A DNA stretch of 64,000 bases from Sitta carolinensis (lineage: Eukaryota > Chordata > Aves > Passeriformes > Sittidae): NCBI GenBank assembly GCA_032173965.1, contig CM063311.1:980262-1044261 (forward strand). The letters run 5' to 3'. How positions within the stretch are numbered: the stretch's first letter is position 1; each line of letters begins with the position of its first letter. The position numbers and the translations under genes were made by a program. This document shows, piece by piece, positions 13,901-40,629 of this stretch. The notes beneath the pieces were generated by a model. That model had not been told where the DNA came from, did no database searches, and was given only the letters and a program-made list of their open reading frames with translations.

Positions 13901-16900
13901 TTTTTTACCAATTTTTTAACCAATTTTAACCAATTTTTTTACCAATTTTTAACCAATTTTTTACCAATTTTTCGCCGATTTTTTTTGCGATTTTTCGCCA
14001 ATTTTTTTGTGGATTTTTTCGCCGATTTTTTTGCGATTTTTTTGCGATTTTTTTGCCGATTTTTTCGCCGATTTTTTCGCCGATTTTTTGCGATTTTTTG
14101 CGATTTTTTGCGATTTTTTGCGATTTTTTTGCCGATTTTTTGCCGCATTTTTTGCGATTTTTTTGCGATTTTTTTGCGATTTTTTGCGATTTTTTTGCGA
14201 TTTTTCGCTGTTTTTCGCCGATTTTTTTACGATTTTTTTGCGATTTTTTTACGATTTTTTGCGATTTTTCGCCGATTTTTTTACGATTTTTTTGCGATTT
14301 TTTTCGATTTTTTTAGCGATTTTTCGCCGATTTTTTTACGATTTTTTTGCGATTTTTTTACGATTTTTTTGCGATTTTTCGCCGATTTTTTTGCTGATTT
14401 TTCCCGGATTTTTCTTTACGATTTTTTTGCGATTTTCGCCGATTTTTTTGCTGATTTTTCCCGGATTTTTTTACGATTTTTTGGCGCTTTTCTGGCATTT
14501 TTTGGTGTTTTTTGCCCCTGGTAGCGCCGCACGAGCGCCTCGTTCTTCCTGCGCAGCGCGGCGATGCGGCCGGTCCAGCTCCGCGTCCTTGGCCAGCGCC
14601 GCCGCCTCCCCTCGCCCGGGGGGCTCCTGCCACGGGAGACCCCACCATAGCCAGAGACCCCCAAAAAAGCCGAAAAATCCCCGCGAAAATCCCCCGGAAA
14701 AGCCCAGAAAATACCAAAAAAATCCCCGCGAAAATCCCCCAAAAAATCTCAGAAAATACCAAAAAAATCGTTGCGAAAATTCCCCAAAAAAATCCCAGAA
14801 AATCCCCCGAAAAAATCCCAGAAAATACAAAAAAAAATCCCCCCCCAAAATCCCAGAAAATACCAAAAAAATCCCCGCGAAAATTCCCAAAAAAATCCCC
14901 GCGAAAATCCCCCCAAAAATCCCAGAAAATACAAAAAAAATCCCCCCCCAAAATCCCAGAAAATACCAAAAAAATCCCCGCGAAAATCCCCAAAAAAATC
15001 GTCGCGAAAATTCCCCAAAAAAATCCCAGAAAATCCCCCGAAAAAATCCCAGAAAATACAAAAAAAATCCCCCCCCAAAATCCCAGAAAATACCAAAAAA
15101 ATCCCGCGAAAATCCCCAAAAAAATCCCAGAAAATACCAAAAAAATCGTCGCAAAAATTCCCCAAAAAAATCCCCGCGAAAATCCCCCGCAAAAATCCCA
15201 GAAAATACAAAAAAAATCCCCCCCCAAAATCCCAGAAAATACCAAAAAAATCCCGCGAAAATTCCAAAAAAATCCCCGCGAAATCCCCCCAAAAATCCCA
15301 GAAAATACAAAAAAAATCCCCCCCAAAATCCCAGAAAATACCAAAAAAATCCCGCGAAAATTCCCAAAAAAATCCCCGCGAAAATCCCCCCAAAAATCCC
15401 AGAAATACAAAAAAATCCCCCCCAAAATCCCAGAAAATACCAAAAAAATCGTCTCGAAAATCCCTCGAAAATCCCAAAAAATCCCTTAAAAACCCAAAAA
15501 TCCCCTCGAAAATCCCCCCAAAAATCTCAGAAAATCCCAAAAAAATCGTCTCGAAAATCCAAAAAAAAATCCCAAAAAATCCCCTCGAAAATCCCCCCAA
15601 AAATCCCAGAAAATAAAAAAAAATCGTCTCAAAAATTTCCCAAAAAAATAAAAAAAATCCCAAAAAATACCCTCAAAAATCCCCAAAAATCCCTCGAAAA
15701 TCCCCCACAAAAATCCCAAAAATCCCAAAAAATCGTCTTGAAAATTCCCAAAAATCCCCTCGAAAATCCCTCAAAAATCCCAAAAAAATCCCCTTGAAAA
15801 TCCCCAAAAATCCCTCGAAAATCCCGCTCAAAAAAACCCCCAGAAAAATCAAAGTATCCCAAATAAATCCCCCAAAAACCTCCAAAAATCCCCAAAAATC
15901 CTCAATAAATCCCCCAAAAACCTAAAAAAATCCCCAAAAATCCCCCCAAAAATCCTCCTAAAACCCCCAAAAACCCCTCAAAAAAACCCTAAAAAATCCC
16001 AAAAATCACCCCAAAAAACCCTAAAAAATCCCAAAAATCACCCCAAAAAAACCCTAAAAAATCCCAAAAATCACCCCAAAAAAACCCTAAAAATCCCCCA
16101 AAAATCCTCCTAAAAAAACCCAAAAATTCCCCCGAAAAACCCCAAAAATCCCTCGGGACCCCTCCCCAAAATAACCCCAAAAAATTCATCAGGACCCCTC
16201 CCAAAAAACCCCCCAGACCCTTCTGGGACCCCCCAGGGACCCCAGATCCCCCCAGGACCCCAGACCCCCCAGACCCTCCCGGGACCCCCAAACCCCTCAG
16301 GACCCCCCAAATCCCCCCAGGACCCCCAAACCCCCCCAGGACCCCCCAAATCCCCTCAGGACCCCCAAATCCCCCCCAGGACCCCAAACCCCCTCAGGAC
16401 CCCCAAATCCCCCCCAGGACCCCCAAACCCCCTCAGGACCCCCCCAAACCCCTCAGGACCCCCCAAATCCCCCCCAGGACCCCCAAACCCCCTCAGGACC
16501 CCCCAAATCCCCCCCAGGACCCCCCCAAACCCCTCAGGACCCCCCAAATCCCCCCAGGACCCCCAAATCCCCTCAGGACCACCCAAACCCCCTCAGGACC
16601 CCCCAAATCCCACCCAAACCCCCCCAAAGCCCCTCAGGACCCCCCCAAATCCCACCCAGCCCCCCCCCAAACCCTTCCAAGACTCCCCAGGACCCCCACA
16701 ATCCCCCTGAGGACCCACTCAGGACCCCCCCGAATCCCCCTAAACCCCCTCAGGACCCCCCAAGCCCCCCCAAATCCCCCCAGGACTCCCCAGGACCCCC
16801 CCCTAAGCCCCCCAAACCCTTCCAGGATCCCCTCGAACCCCCCAAATCCCTCTCCGAACCCCCCCAAGCCCCCTCAGGACCCCCCCAAACCCTCCCAGGA

Positions 16901-22599: not shown

Positions 22600-23450
22600 G
22601 ACCAGCCCCCTCCCCAAATCCGGGACCCCCCCCCCCAAAACACGGGACACCCCGATCCGGGACCCCTAAACATGGGACACCCCGAATCGGGACCCCCCCA
22701 AAACAGGACCCCCAATTGGACCCCCCCTAAACATGGGACACCCCCCGAATCCGGGACCCCCCCCTAAAACAGGGGACACCCCCAGAAATTGGGACCCCCC
22801 CCCTACTAAAACAGGGGACACCCCCCGAAATCCGGGACCCCCCCCTAAAACATGGGACACCCCCAGAAATTCGGGACCCCCCCCCCACTAAAACAGGGGA
22901 CACCCCCCGAAATCCGGGACCCCCCCCTAAAACACGGGACACCCCCGAATCCGGGACCCCCCCCCTAAAACACGGGAACCCCCCAAATCCAGGGACCCCC
23001 CATCCGACCCCCCCGAAAAAACGGGACCCCCCCCTAAAACGCGGGACCCCCCCGAAATCCAGGACCCCCCCCTAAACTCTGGGACCCCCCCTAAATCCGG
23101 GACCCCCCCTCCGAAATCCAGGACCCCCCCCAAAACACGGGATCCCCCCAAACTCTGGGACCCCCCCCAAATCCGGGACCACCCCAAACTCCAGGACCCC
23201 CCCAAATTCGGTACCCCCCCCCAAAACTCTGGGACCCCCCCAAATCCAGGATCCCCCTTCCCAAATTCAGGACCCCCCAAACTCCAGGACCCCCCCCAAA
23301 ACTCCGGACCCCCCAAACCATCCCAACCCCCTCCTAACTTCAGGACCCCCCCCCAACAATCCCAGCCGCCCCCCGAACTCCAGGACCCGCCCCTAAATCC
23401 GGGACCCCCCCAAATCCAGGACCCCCCCAAATCCAGGACCCCCCCAAAGT
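22600..23450. repeat. GGGACCCCCCCNAAA minisatellite
   Basis: Units of 20-35 bp with ACACGGGACACCCC, AAATCCGGGACC and CTAAAAC variants. Confidence 0.9.
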
Positions 23451-23995
23451 GAGGGGGGGGGGAGAAAGTGGAAACCCGCGTGGGGGGAGGGAAAGGGGGG
23501 GGGGACCCACGTGGAGCCCCCTGGAATTGGGGAGGGGGCGGGAGGAGAAGTTTTAAGGGGGGGGGGGGCGAAGTTTGGGGAGGGGGATTTCGGGGTGGGG
23601 GTCGCACTTTTGGGGGGGGGGTTTAAAGCGCCGAGAATTTGAGGGGGGGGGGGTTGGGGGGGGGGTCTCACTATTTTTTTTTTTTTTTTTTTAAACCAAT
23701 TTTCGGAGTTTTTTTTAAATTTGGGGGGGTCTCTTCATTCTTAAATTCCTAAATTCAGGAATTTTGGGTTTTTTTTTCGGGGGGGGGGGTCACGTAAAAA
23801 AAAAAAAAATTAATTTTTTTATATATTAATTTTTTCATATATTAATTTTTTAATTTATTAATTTTCTCATTTATTAATTATTTCAAATTCGCATTTCAGA
23901 TTGAAATTGAGGAGGGGGGATTAGAAGGGGGGGGGTGGTGGGATTTTTTTTAAACCCCCCCCCCCCCCCCAAAAAAAAAAAATCGAACAAGCCCG
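23450..23995. other. G-run block and A/T homopolymers upstream of BBC3
   Basis: Long G runs of up to 10 or more bases, then poly-T, TTTATTAATTTT repeats and poly-A. No exon. Likely hard to sequence. Confidence 0.7.
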
Positions 23996-23999
23996 AACT

Positions 24000-24060
24000 T
24001 GTCCGGGGCGGGGGCGTGGCCGGTGACGTCACGCGGGGCGGTGACGTCACGGGTGGGCGT
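24000..24060 (+). promoter_or_regulatory. BBC3: BBC3 promoter with two CREs
   Basis: Two perfect CRE palindromes TGACGTCA at 24024-24031 and 24042-24049 lie 18 bp apart and are flanked by GGGGCGTGGC boxes. They sit immediately upstream of a short CpG-rich exon with a GTGAGT donor. Assignment to BBC3 is by position. Confidence 0.6.
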
Positions 24061-24111
24061 GGCCCAGCCCCGAGCCGGTGCCGCCGGTGCCGAACGCGCT
24101 CGGTTCATGCC
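24060..24111 (+). other. BBC3: Probable BBC3 non-coding exon 1
   Basis: CpG-rich unique sequence ends in TTCATGCC followed by a consensus donor GTGAGT at 24112. Spliced to the acceptor before 25157 it would form the 5' UTR, as in mammalian BBC3, whose first exon is non-coding. It includes an ATG at 24107 whose frame overlaps the BBC3 start out of frame. The 5' limit is unknown. Confidence 0.6.
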
Positions 24112-25156
24112 GTGAGTGGGGAGGGGGCGCCGGGGGGGGGGGGGGCTTGGGGGGTTTGGGGAGGGGGGTTGGGGTTGGGGGATGGGGGGGGGAAGGGAAG
24201 GAGGGGGGGGTTAACCCCCCCCGCGCCCCTCCCCCCCCCCTTTTTTGGATTGAGGGGGGGGGAAAAGGGGTTGGGGAATTTGGGGAGGGGGCTTGGGGGG
24301 GGTTAAGGGGGGGTGGGGGGAGAAGGGGGGGGTTGGACCCCCCACGCTGTAGTGGGGGAGGGGGGGGGGGTTTGGGGGATTTGGGGAGGGGGCGCGCACG
24401 GGGCTGGGGTGGGGGGGGTTGGGGGCAGAGAGAAAAGGGGGGGGGGTCCCCCAAAATTTGGGGTGGGGGGGCGAAGTGAGAGGAGCGGAGTTTTGGGGAG
24501 GGGGGGGTTGGGGAGTGAGGGGAGGGGGGGGTGAGACCCCCCCCCCAAAACGGGGTGAGGAGGGGGGGGAAACAGGTATGAGGGGGGGTGGGCACAGATA
24601 CGCGTCGAAATTTTGGGGAGGGGGCTTCGGACAGATTTTTTGAGGGGGGGGTTACAAATATTTGAGGAGGGGGGCGCGCGGGACCTCAAATCGGAGATGG
24701 AAATTATTTTTTTTGGGAGGGAGGAGGGGGCGATTTTAAATTTTTAATCCCGTTAATTTTTAATTTGGGGAGGGGGTCGCACCTGAACCTTCCCCCCCCC
24801 CCTCCCCACGCCCCCCCCCCCCCACCCACTCGGGATAATAAAGTCGGGGTGATGAGGATGATGAGGAGGAGGAGTTAGGAGGGAGAGGGGGGGTTTGGAT
24901 GAGTTGGGGGTGTGAGACCCTCCCCCCCCCCCATTTGAATCGTGGAATTTGGGGCGGGGGTCCCCGCGCGTGGCCGGGGGTCGCAGCCCGGTTTGTTTAC
25001 AAACAGCGCCCGCCCGCCCAGCGCCCCCTGGCGGGATTTGATTTTGGGGAGGGGGCGGCAACGAAGCGCAGACCACCCCCCCCCCCTTCCTCTCCTCCTC
25101 TCCCCCCTCCCCAAATTTCTACCGGACGGGTTTGAAGCCCCCTCCTCACATTTCAG
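24112..25156 (+). promoter_or_regulatory. BBC3: BBC3 intron 1 with FOXO-like and CTCF-like sites
   Basis: The intron is dominated by G runs. Near its 3' end lie a forkhead/FOXO core TTGTTTAC at 24993-25000 (within GTTTGTTTACAAAC) and, 21 bp further on, GCGCCCCCTGGCGG at 25021-25034, one base from the CTCF core. It ends in the polypyrimidine acceptor CCTCCTCACATTTCAG. FOXO3 activation and CTCF occupancy are known for mammalian PUMA. Function here is inferred. Confidence 0.5.
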
Positions 25157-25367
25157 AGCCCCCCGGCATCGATGGCCAGACCGCTGCGGGAAGGGACCCT
25201 CGGGGAGCCCCCAGCCCCCCTCCCCTCCCCCCCTGCCTGCGGGGGGGGCGGGGGGGGGACGACCCCCCCCCAAGTAGGGAGGGGGAGGGGGGAGCCCCTC
25301 CCCCCACCCCCGCGGTTCAGCTGCCGGGACCCCCCCGGGACCCCTCCCCCCGATTTGGGGGTTTATG
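25157..25367 (+). CDS. BBC3: BBC3 exon 2 (start codon)
   Basis: The acceptor is CACATTTCAG. It has a 15-nt leader, then ATG at 25172 (context ATCGATGG) and 65 codons plus one base, ending TATG/GTGAGT. It encodes MARPLREG followed by a Pro/Gly-rich segment. The phase 1 end fits the two-base start of exon 3. Confidence 0.85.
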
Positions 25368-27717
25368 GTGAGTGAGGGGGGGAGGGGGGGTTCGGTTTAT
25401 GGGGGGGGGGGCTAGGTTGGGGGGGGGGGTCCTCAATTTATGGGGGGGGGGCCCTGAATTTATGGGGGGATCCCCAATTCCTGGGGGGTCCCCAATTTAT
25501 GGGGAGGGGTCTCAAATTATGGGGAGGGTCCTCAATTTATGGGGGGGTGTCCCCAATTTATGGGAGGGGTCTCCAATCCCGTCAGGGGTCTCAAGTTTAT
25601 GGGGAGGGGTCCCAATTCCTGGGGGGGGTCCCCAATTTATGGGAGGGGTCTCAAATTATGGGTAGGGGTCCCAATTCCTGGGGGGTCCCCAATTCCTGGG
25701 GGGGTCCCCAATTTATGGGAGGGGTCCCCAATTTATGTGAGGGGTCCCAAATTATGGGTAGGGGTCCCAATTCCTGGGGGGGTCCCCAATTTATGGGAGG
25801 GGTCTCCAATCCCGTCAGGGGTCTCAAGTTTTTGGGGAGGGGTCCCAATTCCTGGGGGGGTCCCCAATTTATGGGAGGGGTCTCAAGTTTATGGGGAGGG
25901 TCCTCAAATTATGGGGAGGGGTCTCAGTTGATGGGGGGGTCCCCAATTTATGGGAGGGGTCTCCAATCCCATCAGGGGTCTCAAGTTTATGGGGAGGGGT
26001 CCCAATCTTGGGGGGGTCCCCAATTTATAGGGGGGTTCCCTAATTCTTGGGGGGGGTCCCCAATTTATGGGGAGGGGTCCCAATTCCTGGGGAGGGGTCC
26101 CAATTCCTCGGGGGGTCCCCAATTTATGGGGAGGGGTCCCCAACCCCTTCAATATCCCAAATCCTTTCTTTTTTTTTTTTTGGGGGGGGGGGTCCCAATC
26201 CCATTTGGGGGGTTCCCCACCCCCCATTCCTGGAGAAGCCCCCTCCCCACATTTCCACTCCCCTCGACCCCACCCCCTTTTGGGGGGGGGCGTGGCCTGA
26301 CCGGACCCCCCCCCCCTTTTTTTTTTTGCCCCCCCCTCCCCCCCAGGTGATTTCCCCCCCACGGAACCCCAAGGCAGGACCCCCCAAATTGAGGGGGGGG
26401 CTTTGGCCAACGGGCACCTGGCGGGACCCCCGCCCCCCCCGGGCCCCCCCGGGCCCGAGCAGATTTTGGGGGCGCGGCTGAGGGTCCTGGGGGACGCCTT
26501 CCAGCAGAGCTACGAGCGCCAGGTGAGGGGGGACCCCCCAATTTGGGGAGGGGGCGAGCCCCGAAATGGGGTGGGGGGGCGCGAAAATTGGGGTGGGAAT
26601 GGGGGAAATTGGGGTGGGGGGCTAGGAAATTGGGGTGGGGGCGCGAAAATTGGGGTGGGAACCCCGAAAATTGGGGTGGGGGGCGAGGAAATTGGGGTGG
26701 GGGTCGCGAAATTTGGGTGGGAACCCGAAAATTGGGGTGGGGGGCGAGGAAATTGGGGTGGGGGTCGCGAAAATTGGGGTGGGGGGCGAGGAAATTGGGG
26801 TGGGGGCGCGAAAATTGGGGTGGGGGCGCGAAAATTGGGGCGAAATGGAGAAATTTGGGGAGGGGGCGCCCCAAAATTTTCTCCCTCCGCTTCATTTTTT
26901 TGGGGTTTTCGGGCCCTTGTTGGGGCGACCACCCCCGAATTTGAGGAGGGGGCGACCCCAAAATTGGGGTCTAAACCGGGAGGGGCAGCCGGGAATTTGG
27001 GGTGGGGGTCGCAAAATTGACAGAACCCCCAAAATTTGGCGGGAAACGCCCGAAATTTGGCGGGAACGCCCCCCAAATAACTTTTTTTTTTGGGATATTT
27101 TTCCCAAATTTCCTTTTTTTTTCCCCCATCCCAGCAACTCCCGCTGCCAGGGATGGAATTTTGGGGAGTGGGCGAGGCTGGAATTGGAGGAAAAACCCCC
27201 AAAATTTTTGGGAGCCCCCAAAAATTTAGAAGAGACCCCCAAAATTCCTCATTTTTCCCCCCCAACTCCTCCTCCCCGAGCTGGATTTTGGGGTGGTGGG
27301 ACAGGCTGGAATTAACGAGAAACCCTCAAAATTCAACGGGAACCCCCCCAAAACTTATCGACCCCCCAAAAAAAAATAATTTATGAACCCCAAAACTGAA
27401 AACCCCCCCAAAAATTTAAAGACCCCTCCCCAAATTTCACCGAGAACCCCCAAAAATGCGGCTTTTTTTTAAGGCGGAATTCCCCCAAATTCTCCATTTT
27501 TTCACCTCGCGCTGGCGGGGTTGGGTTTGGGCGGGGTGGGAGGGGTGGAGAGGCGGGGCTTGCGTTAATGAGAGGCGTTAATTAGCGGCGGTAATTAATG
27601 GGGAATTAATTAATCCCGCAGCGCCGAGGGCTCTTCTGGGCGCCGCTCTTCCGCTGGGTGGCGCCCTGGCTGGGGGCGGCGCCCGCAGCGCCCTTGGCGG
27701 CCAGAGGGGGGAACTGA
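25172..27717 (+). CDS. BBC3: BBC3 / PUMA, BH3-only pro-apoptotic protein
   Basis: Three coding exons (25157-25367 with ATG at 25172, 26347-26522, 27622-27717) join in phases 1 and 0 to give an open frame of 155 residues (human PUMA is 193). Seen: the N-terminus MARPLREGTLGEP is close to the mammalian MARARQEG start. A Pro/Gly-rich middle follows. The BH3 helix ILGARLRVLGDAFQQSYER has the LxxxGD core at residues 110-115, and YER is followed directly by a splice site. The last exon gives a hydrophobic tail, GLFWAPLFRWVAPWLG (residues 127-142), suited to mitochondrial membrane targeting. Known: PUMA binds and neutralises BCL2 family survival proteins and is induced by p53 and FOXO3. Context: it lies between CCDC9 and SAE1 in the orientation expected from human 19q13.32. 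No frame break is present. The alternative of another BH3-only gene (BMF, HRK) is less likely given the N-terminus and synteny. Confidence 0.85.
25372..26160. repeat. GGGGTCCCCAATTTATGGG array in BBC3 intron 2
   Basis: 20-22 bp units, GGGGGGTCCCCAATTTATGG or GTCCCAATTCCTGG, interspersed with TCTCCAATCCCGTCAGGGG. This is about 0.8 kb of the 979-bp intron. Confidence 0.9.
26347..26522 (+). CDS. BBC3: BBC3 exon 3 (BH3 domain)
   Basis: 176 nt. The acceptor is a T/C-rich tract ending CCCCCCCAG and the donor is CGCCAG/GTGAGG. Two bases complete the split Gly codon, followed by 58 codons. The last 20 residues form the BH3 helix, with Gly-Asp where human PUMA has Ala-Asp. It ends in phase 0 exactly after YERQ, close to the end of the corresponding mammalian BH3 exon. 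Confidence 0.87.
26560..26860. repeat. GAAATTGGGGTGGGGGNCGC array in BBC3 intron 3
   Basis: About 14 units of roughly 20 bp. The rest of the intron to 27600 has short duplicated segments (TGGAATTTTGGGGAGTGGG, near 27150 and 27290) and no further exon. Confidence 0.88.
27622..27717 (+). CDS. BBC3: BBC3 exon 4 (hydrophobic C-terminal tail, stop)
   Basis: After AATTAATCCCGCAG the frame reads RRGLFWAPLFRWVAPWLG, then an Ala/Pro-rich end, 31 codons and a TGA stop at 27715-27717. The phase 0 entry matches exon 3. The Trp/Leu-rich tail takes the place of the mammalian WRVLYNLIMGLL segment. The polypyrimidine tract is weak, so the exact acceptor is the least certain border of the gene. Confidence 0.75.
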   Translation, partial: RRGLFWAPLFRWVAPWLGAAPAAPLAARGGN

Positions 27718-28069
27718 GGAACCGACCCCGTCCACACCTGGGAAAAACACCTGGAAAAACACTGGAGAACACCTGGGAAACACCTGGGAACATCTGGGGA
27801 CAGCTGGGAACAGCTGGGAGCGCTCACAGGGACAGCAGGGATGGGGGAGAACCCCACAAAGCACAAGCTTCCCCCCCATTTCGGGTTGGTTGCGCCCGAT
27901 TTTTTTAAAATTATTTATTTGGGTTTATTTATTTATTTGGGGGGGGTTAAAAAAATTTGGGGGGGGGGGTGTAAAGTTGGGGGGGGTGTAGGAGTTGAGG
28001 GGGGGGTCTGGAATTGGGGTGGGGTCTCCCAAAAAAAATTTGGGAGGGATTCCCCCCCCCAAAGGAAGG

Positions 28070-29270
28070 GGGTGTGAATGTTGTAAATTTGGGGAGGGGG
28101 TCAAAATTTGGGGTGCTTTTGGGGGGCAAAATAAAGGGGGACCCCCCAAAATGGTGCTGGGAGAGTCAGGACACACCCCCAAATTACCCTGGACTGGGGA
28201 TCCCCAAAATCCCTCCCAAGGGGATGTAGGGACCCCCAAAACCCCCACCCCACCCCAAAAAAACCGGGGCTGTAAATGCTGTAAATTTGGGGAGGGGTTC
28301 AAAATTTGGGGTGCTTTTGGGGGGCAAAATAAAGGGGGACACCCCCAAAATGGTGCTGGGGAGGTTCAGGACCACCCCCAAATTACCCCGGGGGTTAACA
28401 CCCAAAATCTCCCCCTAAGGGGATTTAGGGACCCCAAAACCCCACCCCACCCAAAAAAATCCTGTAAATGCTGTAAATTTGGGGAGGGGGTGAAAGTTTG
28501 GGGGTTTTTTGGGGGACAAAATAAAGGGGGACCCCCCAAAATGGTGCTGGGGGGAGTCAGGACCACCCCCCAAATTACCCCCTGGGGGTAACACCCCAAA
28601 ATCTCCCCCCTAAGGGGATTTAGGGACCCCAAAACACCCACCCCACCCCAAAAAAAATCCTGTAAATGCTGTAAATTTGGGGAGGGGGTCAAAATTTGGG
28701 GTGCTTTTGGGGGGAATAAATGGGGGACCCCCAAAATGGTGCTGGAGGGGTCACGACCACCCCCCAAATTACCCCCGGGGGGTAACACCCCAAAATCCCT
28801 CCCCAGGGGGATTTAGGGACCCCCAAAACCCCCACCCACCCCAAAAAAATCCTGTAAATGCTGTAAATTTGGGGAGGGGGTGAAAGTTTGTGGGGTTTTT
28901 TGGGGGGCAAAATAAAGGGGGACCCCCCCAAAATGGTGCTGGGGGGAGTCAGGACCACCCCCAAATTACCCCCTGGGGGTAACACCCCAAAATTCTCCCC
29001 CTAAGGGGATTTAGGGACCCCCAAAACACCCACCCCACCCCAAAAAAAAATCCTGTAAATGCTGTAAATTTGGGGAGGGGGTCAAAATTTGGGGTGCTTT
29101 TGGGGGGGAATAAATGGGGGACCCCCCCAAAATGGTGCTGGAGGGGGTCACGACCACCCCCCAAATTACCCCCGGGGGGTAACACCCCAAAATCCCCTCC
29201 CCAGGGGGATTTAGGGACCCCAAAACCCCCACCCCAAAAACAATCCTTGTAAATGCTGTACATGGGCTGT
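28070..29270 (+). repeat. Six-unit 195-bp tandem repeat in BBC3 3' UTR
   Basis: Units of 191-198 bp begin with TGTAAATGCTGTAAATTTGG and carry AATAAAGGGGG and CCAAAATGGTGCTGG. AATAAA hexamers occur at 28130, 28328, 28519, 28715, 28911 and 29109. Confidence 0.9.
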
Positions 29271-29389
29271 AAATTTTGGGGGTTTTTATTTTGGGGAGGG
29301 GGATTTTTTGGGGACCCCCACCCCAAAACGGTGCTGGGGGGTGGGGGGAAGAGAAAGACCCCCAAAAAACCCCAAATCCCCCCTGCCCA

Positions 29390-29765
29390 GGGCTGTACAT
29401 GCTGTATATGGGCTGTACATTGTACATAGGGTGTTTATAGGGTCAATGTATATTTTGGGGAGGGGGCTGTACATTTTTTTGGGGGGGCTGTACAGGAATT
29501 TGGGGAGGGGGCTGTAAAATTTTTGGGGTCTGTACATTTAATTTTTTGGGGTCTGTACATTTAATTTTTTTGGGGGCTGTACAGGAATTTGGGGAGGGGG
29601 CTGTACATTTAATTTTTTGGGGGTCTGTACATTTAATTTTTTTGGGGTCTGTACAGGAATTTGGGGAGGGGGCTGTAAAATTTTTTTGGGGGGCTGTACA
29701 GGAATTTGGGGAGGGGGCTGTAAAATTTTTTTGGGGGGTCTGTACATTTTTTTTTTTTTTTTTGG
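29390..29765 (+). repeat. GGGGGCTGTACATTTAATTT array
   Basis: 25-50 bp units alternate CTGTACATTTAATTTTTT and CTGTACAGGAATTTGGGG. It lies just before the BBC3 polyadenylation signal. Confidence 0.88.
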
Positions 29766-29803
29766 GGGAGGGGGTCCCACGCGTTTTTTGTACTTTTGTT
29801 TGC

Positions 29804-29809
29804 AATAAA
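29804..29809 (+). terminator. BBC3: BBC3 polyadenylation signal
   Basis: AATAAA in TTTGCAATAAAATCG, the best-formed plus-strand signal after the BBC3 stop. Cleavage is expected near 29825. Confidence 0.65.
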
Positions 29810-29824
29810 ATCGATTTATCAGAG

Positions 29825-30380
29825 GATTTGGGGGATTTATGGGATTTCTGGGATTTGGGGAGGGGTCTCTGGGATTGATGGGATTTGGGATTTCTGGGAT
29901 TTGGGGAGGGGTCTCTGGGATTTATAGGATTGATGGGATTTGGGGAGGGGTCTCTGGGATTGATGGGATTTGGGATTTATGGGATTTGGGGAGGGGTCTC
30001 TGGGATTTATAGGATTTATGGGATTTGGGGAGGGGTCTCTGGGATTGATGGGATTTGGGACTTATGGGATTTGGGGAGGGGTCTTTGGGATTTATGGGAC
30101 TTGGGGAAGGGTCTCTGGGATTGATGGGATTTAGGATTTATGGGATTTGGGGAGGGGTCTCTGGGATTTATAGAATTTGGGGAGGGGTCTCTGGGATTTC
30201 TGGGATTTGGGATTTCTGGGATTTGGGGAGGGGTCTCTGGGATTTATGGGATTTGGGGAGGGGTCCCTGGGATTTATGGGATTTGGGGAGGGGTCTCTGG
30301 GATTTCTGGGATTTGGGGAGGGGTCTCTGGGATTTCTGGGATTTGGGATTTCTGGGATTTGGGGAGGGGTCTCCATCATT
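29825..30380. repeat. GGGATTTGGGGAGGGGTCTC minisatellite
   Basis: Units of 28-45 bp combine TTTATGGGATTTGGGGAGGG and TCTCTGGGATTGATGGG. They fill the gap between the convergent 3' ends of BBC3 and SAE1. Confidence 0.9.
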
Positions 30381-31189: not shown

Positions 31190-31274
31190 GAGGGGTCCCC
31201 CCCAAGATTGGCCCCCGGAACTCCCCGCCGTCGAAGAGAAGAAATTGTTGTGGGGGGTCCCGCTGGGAGAGCGC
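31190..31274 (-). CDS. SAE1: SAE1 exon 9 (C-terminus, damaged)
   Basis: It reads ALSQRDP, then by shifting frame HNNFF and FDG, as in the mammalian ALSQRDPPHNNFFFFDG terminus. Two compensating one-base differences would restore this. The base pair before GCG at 31274 is TG instead of the AG needed for an acceptor. An internal CAG would start the exon 12 nt later. The stop codon cannot be placed with confidence. Confidence 0.6.
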
Positions 31275-34200
31275 CATGGGGGAGGGGGGGACCACGCGGG
31301 GGGTCCAGGGGGGCGGGGACCCCCAAATCCCCCTGAATCCCCCGAATCCACCCCCAATATCCCCCGAATCCACCCCCAAATCCCCCCGAATCCCCCGAAT
31401 CCACCCCCAAATCCCCTGAATCCCCCCGAATCCACCCCCAATCCCCATCCCCGAATCCCCCCCAATCCCTGAATCCCCCCGAATCCCAACCCCCAAATCC
31501 CAATCCCCCCAAATCCCCCCCGAATCCACCCCAAATCCCCCTGAATCCCCCGAATCCACCCCCAAATCCCCCTGAATCCCCCCGAATCCACCCAAATCCC
31601 CCTGAATCCCCCCGAATCCACCCCAAATCCCCGAATCCCCCCGAATCCACCCCAAATCCCCCGAATCCCCCGAATCCACCCCCAATCCCTGAATCCCCAA
31701 TCCCCAATCCCCAATCCCCCAATCCCCCAAATCCCCGAATCCCCCAATCCCAATCCCCCCAATCCTGATCCCCCAATTCCCCAATCCCCTCCAATCCCCT
31801 GAATCCCCCCAATCCCAATGCCCCAATCCCCCCCTGTTCCCCAATCCCCCAAATCCCCCCAATCCCAATGCCCCCAATCCCCCCAATCCCAATGCCCCCA
31901 ATCCCCCCAATCTCCCTAATCCCAATCCCCCCAATCCCAATCCCAAATCCCAATCCCCCCAATCCCAATCCCCCCCATTCCCCCCATCCCAATCCCAATC
32001 CCAATCCACACCTTCACCACCTCCTGGCCCAGCACCCCCCGACCACGGCGCACACCGGGATCATCTCGGACACGCAGGAGCTGGGGACGGGAAAATGGGA
32101 ATTAAAAATGGGAATTAATAATGGGAAAGGGGATTAAAAATGGGGATTAATAATGGGGAAAATGGGAATTAAAAATGGGAACACCTGTCCCAGGTGTGCC
32201 CTCACCTGTGGAAGGTGTCCCCCCATCCCAGGTGTCCCCTCACCTGTCCCAGGTGTGCGCTCACCTGTGGAAGGTGTCCGGCAGGAGCTGTGGCCCCGCC
32301 CCTATCCCAGGTGTACCTGTACCTGTCCCAGGTGTTCCCCTATCCCAGGTGTACCTGTACCTGCCCAGGTGTGTGCTCACCTGTGGAAGGTGTCCGGCAG
32401 GAGCTGTGGCCCCGCCCCTATCCCAGGTGTACCTGTACCTGTCCCAGGTGTTCCCCATCCCAGGTGTACCTGTACCTGTCCCAGGTGTGCGCTCACCTGT
32501 GGAAGGTGTCCGGCAGGAGCTGTGGCCCCGCCCCTATCCCAGGTGTACCCGTACCTGTCCCAGTGTTCCCCATCCCAGGTGTACCTGTACTGCCCAGGTG
32601 TGTGCTCACCTGTGGAAGGTCCGGCAGAGCTGTGGCCCGCCCTATCCAGGTGTACCTGTACCTGTCCAGGTGTCGCTACTGTGGAAGGTGTCCGGCAGGA
32701 GCTGTGGACCCGCCCTATCCCAGGTGTACCTGTACCTGTCCAGGTGTTCCCATCCAGGTGTACCTGTACCTGTCCAGGTGTGTGCTCACTGTGGAAGGTG
32801 TCCGGCAGGAGCTGTGGCCCCGCCCCAGCCCCTCCAGCACCTCCCGGCGCAGCCGCAGGAGCGCTGGGAATCCTCGGGGCCGGCGGGATCGCGGGCCGAG
32901 TCGGAGCGGAACTGCAGCAGCACTGTCGGGACAGAGAGGGGCTGTCACGATAGGGGGACACTGTCACTGTGTCACTGTCGGGACAGAGAGGGGCTGTCAC
33001 GATAGGGGGACACTGTCACTGTGTCACTGTCGGGACAGAGAGGGGCTGTCACGATAGGGGGACACTGTCACTGTGTCACTGTCGGGACAGAGAGGGGCTG
33101 TCACGATAGGGGGACACTGTCACTGTCACTGTGTCACTGTCGGGACAGAGAGGGGCTGTCACGATAGGGGGACACTGTCACTGTCACTGTGTCACTGTCG
33201 GGACAGAGAGGGGCTGTCACGATAGGGGGACACTGTCACTGTCACTGTGTCACTGTCGGGACAGAGAGGGGCTGTCACGATAGGGGGACACTGTCACTGT
33301 CACTGTGTCACTGTCGGGACAGAGAGGGGCTGTCACGATAGGGGGACACTGTCACTGTCACTGTGTCACTGTCGGGACAGAGAGGGGCTGTCACGATAGG
33401 GGGCACTGTCACTGTCACTGTGTCACTGTCGGGACAGAGAGGGGCTGTCACGATGGGGGGCACTGTCACGATATGGGGGGCACTGTCACTGTTGGGACAG
33501 AGAGGGGCTGTCACGATAGGGGGGCACTGTCACGATATGGGGACACTGTCACTGTGTCACTGTCACGATATAAGGTCACTGTCACTGTCACGATATAGGA
33601 GCACTGTCACTGTCACTGTCACTGTGTCACTGTCGGGACAGAGAGGGGCTGTCACGATATGGGGCACTGTCACTGTCACTGTGTCACTGCGTCACTGTCG
33701 GGATAGAGAGGGGCTGTCACGATAGGGGGCACTGGCACGATATGGGGACACTGTCACTGTGTCACTGTCACGATATAAGGTCACTGTCACTGTCACGATA
33801 TAGGAGCACTGTCACTGTCACTGTCACTGTGTCACTGTCACTGTCACGACATGGGGACTCTGTCACTGTCACTGTCTCGGTGCTGCTGTTGTTTTTTTTC
33901 CCCAGAAATCTCCTTTTTTTTTCCCCCCGATTTTTTTTTTCCCCTCCAAATTTGAATTTTTCCCCACTTTTCACTCCCCCACTCTGAATTCCCCCCCTTT
34001 TCCATTCTCCCCGTGTAATTCCTGCCCGATTCCCGCTCTCCCTCACCGTGCAGCAGGAAGTAGTCGGGGCCGGCGCGGCGCAGCAGCGCAGAGTCCGGAG
34101 CCAGCGCCTCGCGCAGGGCGCAGAACTGCACGCGCTGCGGCCGAACGGGAAAATGGGGAAAAAATGGAATTTTGGGGTCTATCCCGAAGTTTTGGGGTCT

Positions 34201-37200
34201 CTCCAGGAGTTTTTAGGGTTTTTAACCCCCAAAATTTCACAATTGCCCTTTCTGACCAGGGTGGTCTCCAGCCGGACCCCTTTGGGATTTTTAGGATCTG
34301 CCCCAAATTTTTAGGATCTATCCCAAACTTTTGGGGTCTATCCCAAAGTTGGGGAAAATATGGGGTCTATCCCAGATTTTTGGGGTCTCTCCAGGGTTTT
34401 TTAGGGTTTTTTACCCCCCAAAATTTCACAACTGCCCTTTCTGACCAGGGTGGTCTCCAGCCGACCCCTTTGGGATTTTTAGGATCTGCCCCAAATTTTT
34501 GGGGTCTATCCCAAATTTATGGGGTCTATCCCAAATTTATGGGGTCTATCCCAAAGTTTTGGGGTCTCTCCAGAGGTTTTTAGGGTCGTTTCCCCCCAAA
34601 TCCCCCAAACTTTCCCCATTGCCCTTTCTGACCAGGGTGGTCTCCAGCCGGACCCCTTTGGGATTTTTAGGATCTGCCCCAAATTTTTAGGATCTATCCC
34701 AAATTTTGGGGTCTTATCCCAAATTTATGGGGTCTATCCCAGATTTTTGGGGTCTTCTCCAGGTTTTTTAGGGTCTTTCCTCCCCCAAACTTTCCCATTG
34801 CCCTTTCTGACCAGGGTGGTCTCCAGCCGGACCCCTTTGGGATTTTTAGGATCTGCCCCAAATTTTTAGGATCTATCCCAAACTTTTGGGGTCTATCCCA
34901 AATTTATGGGGTCTATCCCAGATTTTGGGGTTCTCCAGGTTTTTTAGGGTTTTTTACCCCCCAAATTTCACAACTGCCCTTTCTGACCAGGGTGGTCTCC
35001 AGCCAGACCCTTTGGATTTTTAGGTTGCCAATTTTTGGGTCTATCCCAAATTAGGTCTATCCCAAAGTTTGGGTCTATCCAGAGTTTTTAGGGTCGTTTC
35101 CCCCAATCCCAAATTCCCATTGCCTTTTGACCAGGTGGTTCAGCAACCCTTGGTTTAGATCTGCCCAAATTTTGAGGTCTATCCCAAATTTTGGGGTCTA
35201 TCCCAAAGTTTTGGGGTCTATCCAATTTGGGGTTCTCCAGGGTTTTTTACCATCCTAAACCCCCCAACCCCCCCCATTGCCCTTTTTGACCAGGGTGGTC
35301 TCGGGGGGCTCCAGCCGAGCCCGTTTGGGATTTTTTCAGGATCTACCCCAATTTTTAGGATCTATCCCAAATTTTCGGGGTCCATCCCAAACTTTCAGTG
35401 TTTTCCACCCCCCCAAACCCCCCCTCACTGACCTTTTTGACCATGGTGGTCTCGGGGGGCTCCAGCCGAGCCCGTTTGGCCTCGGGTCCATCCTCCACCC
35501 CCCCCGTGCTCACTTTGGCCACTTTGGGTTTTTCCCTACAAAAAATCCCAAAAAATCCCAAGAAATTAAACTCAGAAAACCCCAAAACCCCTGAAATTTT
35601 TGGGGTTCTACCTCAAAACTCACTCCACGAACTCGTGGTCGCCCAGGTCAGCAAACATGTAGCCGTGGTAGCCAAAGACGTCGCCGGTGAAGAATTTAAT
35701 TCCGTTTTTGTGGCAGATTTGGTTGATCCTCAGCATGGATTCCCTGGAGCAGCAGGTGAGGCACACCTGGGAAAGGGAAATTTGGGGGTTAGAGTGAGGG
35801 GGGGGTGGAGGAAAAAAGGGATTTTGGGGTTGGAAATGGGGGGTTGTGTTAAAAAATGGGGGTTTTGTGTTAAAAATGGGGGTTTTGTGTTAAAAAATGG
35901 GGGGGTTGTCTTTAAAAAATGGGGATTCTGTCTTTAAAAAACGGGGGATTTTGTTCTAAAAATGGGGATTCTGTCTAAAAATGGGGATTCTATCCCAAAA
36001 TGGGGCTTTTAGGCCAACAAATGAGGGATTCTATCTCAAAAATGGGGATTCTGCCCCAAACTGGGACAATCCCCCCCAAACCCCAAAATATCCCATCCCA
36101 GACCCCAAGCCCCCTGCCCACCCCCCCAAACCCAGGAATATCCCATCCCAGCCCCCCAAACCCCCCCAGACCCCTGCCAATCCCATCACAAACCCCCCAA
36201 AACCCTGAAAATCCATCCCAAACCCAGGAATATCCCATCCCAGCCCCCCAAACCCCTGCCAATCCCCCCCAAACCCAGGAATATCCCATCCCAATCCCCT
36301 ACCAATCCCACCCCAGCTCCCCCAACCCAGGAATATCCCACCCCAATCCCCCCGAATCCCCCCCAACCCCAGGAATATCCCACCCAATCCCCCCCAAACC
36401 CAGGAATATCCCATCTCAAACCCAGCAATATCCCATCCCAGACCCCCCAATCCCCCCCAAACCCAGGAATATCCCACCCCAATCCCCCGAATCCCCCCGA
36501 ATCCCCCCAACCCCAGGAATATCCCACCCCAATCCCCCCAAACCCCTGCCAATCCCATCCCAGCCCCCCCAACCCCAGGAATATCCCATCCCAGCCCCCC
36601 CAAACCAGGAATATCCCATCCCAGACCCCCAAACCCAGGAATATCCCATCCCAGACCCCCAAACCCAGGAATATCCCACCCCAATCCCCCCAAACCCCTG
36701 CCAATCCCATCCCAGCCCCCCAACCCCAGCAATATCCCACCCAATCCCCCCAAGCCCAGGAATATCCCACCCCAATCCCCCCAACCCCAGGAATATCCCA
36801 CCCCAATCCCCCCCAACCCCAGGAATATCCCACCCCAATCCCCCCCAAGCCCAGGAATATCCCACCCCAATCCCCCTGAATCCCCCCCAATCCCCCCCAA
36901 CTCCAGGAATATCCACCCCAATCCCCCCCAAACCCCTGCCAATCCCATCCCAGCCCCCCCAACCCCAGGAATATCCCACCCCAATCCCCCCCAACCCCAG
37001 GAATATCCCACCCCAATCCCCCCAACCCCAGGAATATCCCACCCCAATCCCCCCCAACCCAGGAATATCCCATCCCAGACCCCCAAACCCAGGAATATCC
37101 CATCCCAGACCCCCAAACCCAGGAATATCCCATCCAGCCCCCCCAACCCCAGGAATATCCCATCCCAGCCCCCCAAACCAGGAATATCCCATCCCAGACC

Positions 37201-40200
37201 CCAAACCAGGAATATCCCATCCCAGACCCCCAAACCCAGGAATATCCCACCCCAATCCCCCCCAAACCCCTGCCAATCCCATCCCAGCCCCCCAACCCCA
37301 GCAATATCCCACCCCAATCCCCCCCAAGCCCAGGAATATCCCACCCCAATCCCCCCAACCCCAGGAATATCCCACCCCAATCCCCCCAAGCCCAGGAATA
37401 TCCCACCCCAATCCCCCCAAGCCCAGGAATATCCCACCCAATCCCCCCAAGCCCAGGAATATCCCACCCAATCCCCCCCAAGCCCAGGAATATCCCACCC
37501 CAATCCCCCCCAAGCCCAGGAATATCCCACCCCAATCCCCCCAATCCCCTGCCAATCCATCCCAGCCCCCAAGCCCAGGAATATCCCATCCCAGACCCCC
37601 AAACCCAGGAATATCCCATCCCAGACCCCAACCCCAGCAATATCCCACCCCAATCCCCCCAACCGCAGGAATATCCCCCCCAATCCCCCCCAATCCCCCC
37701 CGCCCCGTGCCCACCGCGTCGAACTGCGTGAAGAACTCGGGCCCCTTGGCGTCGACGCTCTCGGGGTCTGCCCGCACCTCCACCATGGCGTTGAGGCTCC
37801 GCGCCCGCGCCAGCGACGCCTCGGCACGGCTCCGGCCCTGGCAACCCGCCGGGATCAGGAACTGCGCGCGGCCCTCCTGCGGGCACACCTGCGACAGGTG
37901 AGGGGACAGGTGAGGATAAACCCGCTGGGATCAGGAACTGGCACTGGCTGGCCTGCGGGCACACCTGCGACAGGTGAGGGGACAGGTGAGGAGAGAGCTG
38001 GGATCAGGAACTGGCACTGGCTGGCCTGCGGGCACACCTGCGACAGGTGAGGGGGGGACAGGTGAGGAGAGAGACAGGTGAGGAGAGAGACAGGTGAGGA
38101 GAGACCCGCCGGGATCAGGAACTGGCACTGGCTGGCCTGCGGGCACACCTGCGACAGGTGAGGGGACAGGTGAGGATAAACCGCCGGGATCAGGAACTGG
38201 GCACTGGCTGTCCTGGGGGCACACCTGGACAGGTGAGGAGGGGAGGGACAGGTGAGGATAGACCCGCCGGAATCAGGAACTGGCACTGGCTGTCCTGGGG
38301 GCACACCTGGGACAGGTGAGGAGGGGAGGGACAGGTGAGGATAAACCTGCCGGGATCAGGAACTGGGCACTGGCTGTCCTGGGGGCACATCTGGACAGGT
38401 GAGGATAAACCCGCCAGGATCAGGAACTGGGCACTGGCTGTCCTGGGGGCACACCTGGACAGGTGAGGATAAACCCGCCAGGATCAGGAACTGGGCACTG
38501 GCTGTCCTGGGGGCACACCTGGACAGGTGAGGATAAACCCGCCAGGATCAGGAACTGGGCACTGGCTGTCCTGGGGGCACACCTGGACAGGTGAGGATAA
38601 ACCCGCCAGGATCAGGAACTGGCACTGGGTGTCCTGGGGGCACACCTGGACAGGTGAGGAGGGGAGAGACAGGTGAGGAGAGAGACAGGTGAGGAGAGAG
38701 ACAGGTGAGGAGTGACCCCTGGGATCAGGAACTGGCCTGCCTGTCCTCAGGACACACCTGGGCAGGGGGACAGGTGAGGAGGGAGCCAGGTTTGGAGGGG
38801 GGTCCTGAGGGGAACACCTGGTAAAACCAGGACAAGGTGTTCCCCAGGTGTGTCCAGGTGTGGGTGTGTCCCCTCCCCCCAGGTGTGTCCCCAGGTGTGT
38901 GCCCCCTCACCTGGTGGTGGTCCAGCAGGGTGAGCCCCTTCACCCGGCCAGGATGAGGCTGTGGCCAGGTGTGGGTGTGTGCCCAGGTGTGTCCCCTCCC
39001 CCAGGTGTGTCCCCGGGTGAGTCCCAGGTGTGTCCCCTCCCCTCAGGTGTGTCCCCAGGTGTGTCCCCCTCACCTGGTGGTGGTCCAGCAGGGTGAGCCC
39101 CTTCACCCCGGCCAGGATGAGGTTTTTGGCCACCTCGGCCCCCAGCCCCGCAGCCCCACCAGCAGCACCCTGGAGGCCCTCAACCTGCGGGGGGGGGGGG
39201 CAATGAGACCCCAGACCCGAGAGAGACCCAGACCCAGAGAGACCCCAGACCGAGAGAGACCCCGGATCCCTACAGAGACCCCCAGACCGAGAGAGACCCC
39301 CGGATCCCTACAGAGACCCCCAGACCCGAGAGAGACCCCAGACCCAGAGAGACCCCAGACCCGAGAGAGACCCCCGGATCCCTACAGAGACCCCAGACCC
39401 GAGAGAGACCCCAGACCCCAGAGAGACCCGGATCCCTACAGAGACCCCAGACCCGAGAGAGACCCCGGATCCCTACAGAGACCCCAGACCCGAGAGAGAC
39501 CCCCGGATGCCTACAGAGACCCCAGACCCGAGAGAGACCCCGGATCCAAGAGAGACCCCAGACCGAGAGAGACCCCGGATCCAAGAGAGACCCCAGAGAG
39601 ACCCAGACCGAGAGAGACCCCCGGATCCCTACAGAGCCCCCCAGACCCGAGAGAGACCCCCGGATCCAAGAGAGACCCCAGACCCCAGAGAGACCCCCGG
39701 ATCCCTACAGAGCCCCCCAGACCCGAGAGAGACCCCGGATCCCTACAGAGACCCCCGGAACCGAGAGAGACCCCAGACCCGAGAGAGACCCCCAGAGAGA
39801 CCCCAGACCCCAGAGAGACCCCCGGATCCGAGAGAGACCCAGACCCGAGAGAGACCCCCAACCCTATGGGGACCCTGGCAATGAGACCCCAGACCCTGTG
39901 GGGACCCCCAGACCCGAGAGAGACCCCCGGATCCCTACGGGGACCCCCAGACCCGAGAGAGACCCCCGGATCCGAGAGAGACCCCCAACCCCTATGGGGA
40001 CCCCGGCAATGAGACCCCAGACCCCTGTGGGAACCCCCGGACCCCCATAGAGACCCCAGACCCGAGAGAGACCCCCAGACCTTACAGAGACACCCTCAAC
40101 CCCTATAGGGACCCCCCCAACCCCTATAGAGACCCCCGAACCCCCCTATAGAGACCCCCAGACCCCTATGGGGACCCCCAGACCCTACAGGGACCCCAGA

Positions 40201-40629
40201 CCCCTATGGGGACCCCAGACCTTATAGAGACCCCCCAGACTCTACAGGGACCCCCAGACCCCTCTAGAGCCACCCTGAATCCCCTATAAGGACCCCCAAC
40301 CCCCTACTGACCCCTATAAAGACCTCCAAGCTCCTATGGGGACCTCCCAGACTCCTCTGGGAACCCCCAGAGCCCCCTAAGTCTCCTACAGGGGTTCCTC
40401 TAATTCCTACAGGGCTCTTATATCCCCTATAGACCCCGCCCAAAACCCACAGAGAGACACCCCGAGAACTCCCAAGCCCTATAGGACCCCCCCAAGCCCC
40501 TATAGGTCCCCGTATAGAAGACCCCCAACCTTTTCTGGGCCTCGAGCCCCACAGCCGGATCTGCCGGTCGTACTGCGCCGCCTCCTCCTCGCTGATGCCG
40601 CCGGCGCTCGACTCGTCCTTCTCCACCAT
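31190..40629 (-). CDS. SAE1: SAE1, SUMO-activating enzyme subunit 1 (nine exons)
   Basis: Nine minus-strand exons cover the whole protein: 40629-40530, 39184-39074, 37888-37715, 35766-35624, 35535-35433, 34134-34047, 32922-32790, 32080-32012 and about 31274-31190. Exon count matches mammals. Known: SAE1 pairs with UBA2 to form the nuclear SUMO E1. SAE1 supplies the conserved Arg and half of the adenylation fold, and the catalytic Cys is on UBA2. Seen: ISEEEAAQYDRQIRLWG, AKNLILAGVKGLTLLDH, TCCSRESM, HKNGIKFFTGDVFGYHGY, KVAKVS...VEDGP, ETTMVKK, DYFLL, SEMIPVCAVVGG. Exons 1, 2, 7 and 8 contain single-base indels, and exon 9 probably does, that splice-phase arithmetic marks as missing or extra bases. 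Exons 3-6 are intact. Introns are minisatellites, many of which include exon edges. Confidence 0.9.
31330..32005. repeat. CCCCCGAATCCACCCCCAAAT minisatellite (SAE1 intron 8)
   Basis: 17-22 bp units grade into CCCCAATCCCAAT. The array starts directly at the donor of exon 8, and its unit resembles the donor sequence (GTGTGGATTGGG on the gene strand). Confidence 0.88.
32012..32080 (-). CDS. SAE1: SAE1 exon 8 (one base missing)
   Basis: Acceptor GTCCCCAG, donor AAG/GTGTGG. It reads CVSEMIPVCAVVGG and then, after restoring one G, LGQEVVK. The exon is 69 nt, while its phases (2 in, 0 out) need 70. The loss lies in the C run 32035-32040. Confidence 0.85.
32180..32785 (-). repeat. Minisatellite carrying the 3' end and donor of SAE1 exon 7
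   Basis: Units of about 110 bp contain, on the gene strand, GGGGCCACAGCTCCTGCCGG, ACACCTTCCACAG and the donor GTGAGC, identical to the end of exon 7, followed by ACCTGGGACAGGTACAGGT spacers. There are five to six copies. Those between 32575 and 32780 are missing many bases. Confidence 0.88.
32790..32922 (-). CDS. SAE1: SAE1 exon 7 (two frame breaks)
   Basis: After CTGTCCCGACAG it reads LLQFRSDSARDPAGPEDS, then in a second frame ALLRLRREVLEGLG, then in a third GPQLLPDTFH. These follow the mammalian LLKFRTDKGRDP...LLLQIRNDVLDSLG...LLPEDF order. The donor is CACA/GTGAGC here but CACAG/GTGAGC in the repeat copies, so a G is probably missing as well. Confidence 0.8.
32927..33870 (-). repeat. Minisatellite carrying the acceptor of SAE1 exon 7
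   Basis: About 13 units of 50-60 bp contain CACTGTCGGGACAGAGAGGG and GCTGTCACGATAGGGG. On the gene strand each includes CCCCTCTCTGTCCCGACAGT, identical to the exon 7 acceptor. Confidence 0.9.
34047..34134 (-). CDS. SAE1: SAE1 exon 6
   Basis: 88 nt, phase 0 to 1. It reads RVQFCALREALAPD, then a short Ala/Leu run and AGPDYFLLH, matching KVVFCPVKEALEVDW...TSDYFLLQ in mammals. Acceptor CGGCCGCAG, donor CACG/GTGAGG. Intact. Confidence 0.9.
34150..35425 (-). repeat. Minisatellite carrying the 3' end of SAE1 exon 5
   Basis: About seven units of roughly 180 bp, each with GCCCTTTCTGACCAGGGTGG and TCTCCAGCCGGACCCCTTTG, the diverged complement of the end of exon 5 (encoding RLE..ETTMVKK). The copy at 35277-35330 is nearly identical to the exon. 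Spacers are TCTATCCCAAATTTTTGGGG. The unit at 34975-35240 has lost many bases. Confidence 0.88.
35433..35535 (-). CDS. SAE1: SAE1 exon 5
   Basis: 103 nt, phase 2 to 0. It reads EKPKVAKVSTGGVEDGPEAK, then RARLEPPETTMVKK, close to the mammalian linker, and includes basic stretches. Donor GTCAGT, acceptor TTTTGTAG. Intact. Confidence 0.9.
35624..35766 (-). CDS. SAE1: SAE1 exon 4
   Basis: 143 nt, phase 0 to 2. It reads VCLTCCSRESMLRINQICHK, then NGIKFFTGDVFGYHGY and ADLGDHEFVE. Acceptor TTTCCCAG, donor GTGAGT. Intact and the most conserved exon of the gene here. Confidence 0.93.
35800..37690. repeat. CCCAGGAATATCCCATCCCA minisatellite (SAE1 intron 3)
   Basis: A short AAAATGGGGGTTTTGTGTT array (35840-36050), then about 1.6 kb of 30-37 bp units AACCCAGGAATATCCC and CCCAATCCCCCC. 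The long Gly/Trp ORFs on the minus strand are artefacts. Confidence 0.92.
37715..37888 (-). CDS. SAE1: SAE1 exon 3
   Basis: 174 nt, 58 codons, phase 0 to 0. It reads VCPQEGRAQFLIPAG, then RSRAEASLARARSLNAMVEV and ends EFFTQFDA, as in mammals (GAQFLIRTG..NRAEASLERAQNLNPMVDV..FFTQFDA). Acceptor CACCTGTCGCAG, donor GTGGGC. Intact. Confidence 0.92.
37889..38765 (-). repeat. Minisatellite carrying the acceptor and 5' end of SAE1 exon 3
   Basis: About 11 units of 52-80 bp. On the gene strand each holds CACCTGTCGCAG (or CACCTGTCCAG), then GTGTGCCCGCAGG and CAGTTCCTGATCCCGGCGGG, the first 15 or so codons of exon 3. The acceptor is retained in most units. Confidence 0.92.
38840..39066 (-). repeat. 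Second copy of SAE1 exon 2 3' end plus CAGGTGTGTCCCC units
   Basis: 38901-38970 repeats the last about 65 bp of exon 2 (encoding LILAGVKGLTLLDHHQ) with its GTGAGG donor. It is surrounded by GTGTGTCCCCAGG units that link the two copies. Confidence 0.85.
39074..39184 (-). CDS. SAE1: SAE1 exon 2 (one base missing)
   Basis: Reads LRASRVLLVGLRG, then after restoring one G LGAEVAKNLILAGVKGLTLL and DHHQ, the nucleotide-binding Rossmann part of the adenylation domain. Observed length is 111 nt, while phase 2 in and 0 out need 112. The missing base is in the C run 39146-39149. Confidence 0.9.
39200..40250. repeat. GAGAGACCCCCGGATCCCTAC minisatellite (SAE1 intron 1)
   Basis: Units of about 20-40 bp carry CAGACCCGAGAGAGACCCC and GGATCCCTACAGAGACC, decaying into CCCCTATAGAGACCCCC towards 40500. 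Confidence 0.92.
40530..40629 (-). CDS. SAE1: SAE1 exon 1 (start; one base missing)
   Basis: ATG at 40629, reads MVEKDESSAGGISEEEAAQY, then DRQIRLWG and, after restoring one base, LEAQKR. Observed 100 nt; the phase 2 donor (AAAAG/GTTGGG) needs 101. The loss is in the C run 40547-40550. Confidence 0.92.

Follow-up and report, generated by a model that had tools for sequence, protein, structure and literature searches.

A very probable single-copy BBC3 (PUMA) orthologue with a predicted p53 element on a repeat-dense contig of the passerine Sitta carolinensis

The stretch of DNA analysed here (64 kb in full length, hereafter the window) covers positions 980262-1044261 of a 1.59 Mb contig (C37) of the Sitta carolinensis assembly. 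Based on its sequence, it very probably carries the passerine orthologue of BBC3, the gene encoding PUMA, as a single-copy gene with open reading frames on a repeat-dense contig resembling the dot chromosomes of chicken. In mammals, PUMA is a main executioner of p53 after DNA damage. While the orthologue itself is already named in several bird records, the clean passerine gene model, its p53 element and its passerine-specific tail are added here. All claims on this locus rest on sequence, and both expression and function are predicted.

The gene and its probable 3' untranslated region (UTR) were delineated as follows:

25157..25367, + strand, BBC3 exon with the start codon (ATG at 25172; acceptor AG at 25155-25156)
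26347..26522, + strand, BBC3 coding exon 2 (open frame, splice signals)
26466..26501, + strand, BH3 core LGARLRVLGDAF (match to the BH3 pattern; conserved in relatives)
27622..27717, + strand, BBC3 coding exon 3 (passerine-type tail and stop codon at 27715-27717)
27718..29809, + strand, probable BBC3 3' UTR (198-bp tandem repeat; AATAAA signals)

The coding part of exon 1 (25172-25367) comprises 196 nt and exits in phase 1, exon 2 (26347-26522) comprises 176 nt and exits in phase 0, and exon 3 ends the frame with a TGA at 27715-27717. Spliced in silico, the three exons encode 155 residues with no internal stop. At the two donors, exonic ATG and CAG are followed by GTGAGTGAG and GTGAGGGGG, respectively, and the sequences preceding the two acceptor borders end in CCCCCCCAG and TCCCGCAG. 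Re-translation of the window reproduced exactly the exon borders, the phases (1, then 0) and the 155-residue length proposed by an earlier sequence-only reading of this DNA, which had also reported no frame break; all three exons are indeed open. The splicing pattern is thus predicted from splice signals and open frames, and the spliced protein aligned along its full length with five passerine protein records, which argues against a choice of exons by chance. Other passerines carry about four additional residues (Trp-Gly-Ala-His or similar) at the junction of exons 1 and 2 that the window is without (25360-25370 and 26347); this difference is either a small deletion or a shifted donor. Homopolymers of 7-9 bases occur five times in exon 1 and four times in exon 2. 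A 35-base match of exon 2 to 23426-23460 (86%) was C-rich and was taken as chance. Downstream of the stop codon, a 198-bp tandem repeat (28073-29260, ca. 6 copies) holds six AATAAA motifs, with a further AATAAA at 29804; the six within the repeat could provide a ladder of transcript ends.

In human PUMA, which likewise has three coding exons, the BH3 is encoded by the middle exon. In the six frames of the 64 kb, a loose BH3 pattern occurred only once, at 26466 on the + strand; this single motif contains the invariant Leu and Asp. The Gly-Asp of its core was found in all 22 sauropsid rows of the alignment, so that the human core, Met-Ala-Asp-Asp-Leu, is the odd one in that alignment. The Gly-Asp core noted by the sequence-only reading is therefore present and unlike the human form, but it is shared by the sauropsids examined and not special to birds.

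Searches of the surrounding sequence identified two flanking genes:

31212..40629, - strand, SAE1 (tblastn with human SAE1; start codon read)
13027..14600, - strand, first part of CCDC9 (tblastn query: the CCDC9-like start of P0019, a pigeon model; sequence read)

The order in the window is thus CCDC9 (-), BBC3 (+) and SAE1 (-), with BBC3 on the strand opposite to both neighbours. This is the mirror image of the mammalian order around BBC3, and the reversed synteny, with BBC3 on the expected strand, had been correctly described from the sequence. The pigeon model P0019, which is independent of the window, joins a CCDC9 start to a BBC3 end. Tandem repeats make up 74% of the window; their share is 0%, 1% and 0% in BBC3 exons 1, 2 and 3, 78% in intron 1 and 48% in intron 2. 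In SAE1, the first 44-49 nt of exon 3 recur as 10 copies, 84-88% identical, in the preceding intron, and the edges of exons 2 and 5 each have one extra copy (93% and 98%); these exon-edge copies lie at 37919-38648, 38912-38967 and 35282-35328. Such copies are exon stuttering, here in a songbird, a phenomenon described for chicken dot chromosomes in PMC12954441, so that this passerine contig behaves as dot chromosomes do. A related paper, PMC11745021, lists BAX among formerly missing bird genes.

Database searches revealed how relatives of this protein are distributed and named. With residues 66-155 as the query, 8 of 258 candidates matched, all from birds: the malkoha Phaenicophaeus, named bcl-2-binding component 3, and seven songbirds (passerines), uncharacterized or misnamed. 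A second profile, built from the window, the malkoha and five songbirds (seven sequences in all), matched 26 of 7990 scored candidates, including five bird records named BBC3 (malkoha, potoo, emu as '-like', gull and duck), two turtles and one lizard with that name, and misnamed hawk, owl and chicken proteins. A third profile matched 34 of 7993; where the species was given, these matches came from birds and from turtles, lizards and snakes, with no mammalian protein among them. The suggestion that the gene is absent or unannotated in birds is therefore not simply correct: five bird records carry its name, although many others are misnamed. Avian BBC3 has been filed as collagen-like, formin-like, proline-rich, SFPQ-like, CPSF6-like, LGE1-like or uncharacterized (P0001-P0006, P0008-P0011, P0014, P0017 and P0026), some in wrong frames. 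Models P0008 and P0017 translate the BH3 exon in a different frame, and P0004, P0008, P0014 and P0016 begin in a different frame; these off-frame songbird and raptor models were taken as annotation faults. No description of avian BBC3 was found in the open-licence papers searched, and BBC3, PUMA, SAE1 and CCDC9 did not occur in the main texts of the avian missing-gene papers searched. The five passerine relatives used for comparison were filed as follows:

Chamaea, 'basic salivary proline-rich protein 2-like'
Taeniopygia, 'basic proline-rich protein-like'
Camarhynchus, 'formin-A-like'
Poecile, 'collagen alpha-1(I) chain-like'
Haemorhous, uncharacterized

The BBC3 proteins of other passerines are 76-82% identical overall to the window product and share its start, BH3 and tail; the middle varies in length, and some have two-residue insertions before the tail. 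Non-passerine sauropsid proteins (Dromaius P0015, Larus P0018, Anas P0022, Phaenicophaeus P0007 and Emydura P0020) resemble it in a MARPLR-type start in most of them, a Pro/Gly-rich middle, an LGARLR-x-x-GDAF BH3 in birds, and a hydrophobic tail in which a Trp and a Leu-Gly are conserved. A hydrophobic tail is also found in human PUMA. Calculated over window residues, the mean identity to the five passerines and to eight other birds was, respectively, 95% and 69% for the N-terminus, 58% and 35% for the Pro/Gly-rich middle, 87% and 80% for the BH3, and 92% and 41% for the tail (33-58% in the individual non-passerine birds).

The assignment to BBC3, already made by the sequence-only reading, is supported by the agreement of profile score, phylogeny, synteny and copy number. 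A profile (HMM) built from 16 non-passerine sauropsid BBC3 proteins gave the window protein 99 bits. Applied to human BH3-only proteins, the same profile gave 37 bits for PUMA, 13 for BMF, 12 for NOXA, 8 for BIM and 7 for HRK, with no score reported for BIK; it ranks human PUMA above BMF, NOXA, BIM and HRK. In a maximum-likelihood tree of 21 proteins, the window grouped with the five passerines with a support of 100/100. This tree included 20 of the 38 collected proteins in addition to the window protein, and omitted the frame-faulty models P0004, P0008, P0014, P0016 and P0017 as well as 13 others (near-duplicates, fused or partial models, unsourced records and further reptiles). Only one copy of BBC3 was detected at E<=0.001 in the 1.03 Gb, 252-contig assembly; a separate BBC3 elsewhere, named beforehand as evidence against this identity, was not found at this threshold.

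That the locus might instead be another BH3-only gene (HRK, BMF or BIM), with a Gly-Asp core closer to theirs, appears exceedingly improbable. The pairwise score against human HRK (51) was reached by none of 300 shuffles, when the scores against PUMA (88) and BIM (64) were reached by 6 and 11 of 300, respectively, and some single relatives gave weak Pfam matches to Bclx_interact or BMF. Pairwise scores with human BH3-only proteins are dominated by composition, and were dropped as a decider between families; emu BBC3 even scored higher against human BMF (z 12.3) than against PUMA (z 10.9). Against this alternative stand the preference of the sauropsid profile for PUMA, the flanking genes, which are those of BBC3, and the locations of BMF and HRK: the BMF model gave 176 bits on contig C11, with two further exons there and no match in the window, and the sole assembly match of the HRK model at E<=0.1 was on contig C21, marginally above its cut-off (28.2 versus 27.9 bits). 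The Pfam PUMA model (PF15826) did not match the window protein, nor anything in the whole assembly, where controls were equally silent and the search therefore says nothing. Among 10 relatives, two exceeded its cut-off, both of them reptilian (P0020 from Emydura, and P0021), which also argues against another family; three matched below it, and five gave no match. Three of these five records carry the BBC3 name, which makes PF15826 a poor test for birds; at E<=1, it matched 9 of 24 aligned members. A PDB search of the window protein returned one row, PpsR (E 1.9), attributed to chance.

If the locus is BBC3, it might still have lost its function and be decaying along with a region that is shedding genes, which we consider very unlikely. 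In favour of this reading, bird dot chromosomes lost 29% of ohnologs according to PMC12954441. One-base frame slips are also apparent nearby on the minus strand, in SAE1 exons 1 (40527-40629) and 2 (39075-39185) and in the adjacent CCDC9 exon (14485-14600). However, none of the BBC3 exons is interrupted, and their BH3 and tail are 87% and 92% identical to those of five passerines when the middle is only 58% identical, which speaks against decay. A genome search with human SAE1 yielded seven matches, five of them in the window and two weaker and less similar ones on C25 and C36, which were taken as related E1 enzymes. Because strong SAE1 matches are confined to the window, the slips look like assembly base errors; this is their likely origin in SAE1 and CCDC9, early decay being the alternative. 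An intact BBC3 orthologue thus remains the preferred reading.

Upstream of the coding exons, several putative regulatory features were identified:

23985..24004, + strand, perfect p53 response element of two decamers with no spacer (consensus match)
24005..24111, + strand, promoter-proximal stretch and putative 5' exon (donor GT at 24112; splice signals)
24024..24049, no strand, two exact CRE palindromes TGACGTCA at 24024 and 24042 (motif only)
24107-24111 plus 25157-25277, + strand, putative upstream reading frame of 41 codons (translation; stop at 25277)

Scored against the standard p53 consensus, the element at 23985-24004 fits at all 20 positions and is the sole exact match in 64 kb, where 0.01 would be expected and 1 of 100 shuffles had one. 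It was still the sole match when two mismatches were allowed, with 1.1 expected, a count that is uninformative by itself. Binding by the p53 family is therefore predicted at this site. The element starts 15 bases ahead of position 24000, at which the sequence-only reading had begun the gene, and was absent from that description, as was the probable upstream exon. By manual count, 14 of its 20 bases agree with those of the human PUMA element as printed in PMC6982142. A role for the two CRE palindromes may be proposed from the motif; a third palindrome lies far off, at 48404. Splice signals and the gene models of other birds both point to a probable first exon upstream of the coding exons: an ATG at 24107 stands right before a GTGAGT donor that is able to join the acceptor at 25155-25156. 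The resulting 41-codon frame overlaps the BBC3 start out of frame, and models from Agelaius, Passerculus, Tyto and Aquila (P0004, P0008, P0014 and P0016) begin with a similar peptide, raising the possibility that PUMA translation is held back by a conserved upstream frame. G-quadruplex motifs on the + strand occupy 43% of the 200 bases following the p53 element, versus 6% of the window, and folding of the leader RNA gave a z of -3.3. In yeast, such motifs near the human PUMA element modify p53 activity, as reported in PMC6982142.

Neither the P53 family model (E<=0.001) nor a chicken p53 domain (E<=10) located TP53 in the 1.03 Gb assembly. These searches revealed only two p53-family loci, on contig C15 at ca. 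10.80 Mb and on contig C26 at ca. 4.47 Mb, which peptide comparison identifies as TP63 and TP73, respectively. An assembly gap may hide TP53, the search may have missed it, or the gene may be truly missing. The element may therefore be read by p63 or p73, and would have to be if TP53 is indeed missing.

The C-terminal tail, described from the sequence as different from that of human PUMA, does differ, but this feature is special to passerines and not to birds, given the 41% identity to other birds. The passerine stem branch of the tree is long (0.46 changes per column), and the Gly+Ala+Arg+Pro fraction of the tail is 0.64 in the window and 0.61-0.66 in the five passerines, versus 0.32-0.41 in nine other sauropsids. 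An origin by frame shift was set aside, as the tail aligns, judged by eye, to the ancestral tail without a break. The tail of human PUMA binds membranes and BCL-XL, with I175 and P180 needed, according to excerpts of PMC10185343. Aligned by eye, I175 corresponds to Val, Ile or Leu in sauropsid tails and P180 to Gly, with a gap in Poecile, and passerine tails add prolines at other positions. AlphaFold models of two relatives, both too disordered for fold comparison, were inspected: emu BBC3 (mean pLDDT 61.8) has one helix from 130 to 183 that runs through the BH3 and the tail, with block means of 87-97 over 131-180, and Chamaea BBC3 (mean pLDDT 57.8) has one helix from 108 to 145, shorter and weaker than that of emu.

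How the passerine tail came about can be read in two ways. The somewhat favoured account is passive GC-biased gene conversion on a GC-rich dot chromosome, with no new function. The shift in residue composition fits this account, as do the 78% GC of exon 3, the GC3 of 0.85 over the CDS and the accelerated protein evolution reported for such regions in the excerpts of PMC8449477. GC-driven drift accounts for the direction of the change; yet the later conservation suggests constraint, the tail having remained 92% identical among passerines, ahead of the BH3 (87%) and well ahead of the middle (58%). A more ambitious reading, which we regard as unlikely in its joint form, is that the ancestral tail, which bound membranes and BCL-XL, was replaced on the passerine stem by a Trp/Pro-rich one and kept since, changing the location of PUMA and its hold on BCL-XL, and that p63 or p73 act at the perfect p53 element in this lineage with TP53 undetected.

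Based on these features, a p53-family factor would bind at 23985-24004, and transcription would start just 3' of the element, with a short 5' exon spliced to the three coding exons. The product is predicted to be a small, mostly disordered protein. Its BH3 helix would dock in the groove of BCL-2-type survival proteins, freeing or activating BAX and BAK, a step established for PUMA. By analogy with human PUMA, the C-terminal sequence would also bind membranes and hold BCL-XL at a second point; in passerines, this tail has been rewritten, which may or may not bear on either role.

Avian BBC3 sits in DNA that is badly handled by assemblies and annotators. Studies of cancer, ageing and the response to DNA damage in birds can start from the clean passerine model and its p53 site, and the passerine tail provides a natural experiment on the poorly understood tail of PUMA. 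Should this lineage truly lack TP53, what drives a perfect p53 site at BBC3 would become a directly testable question.
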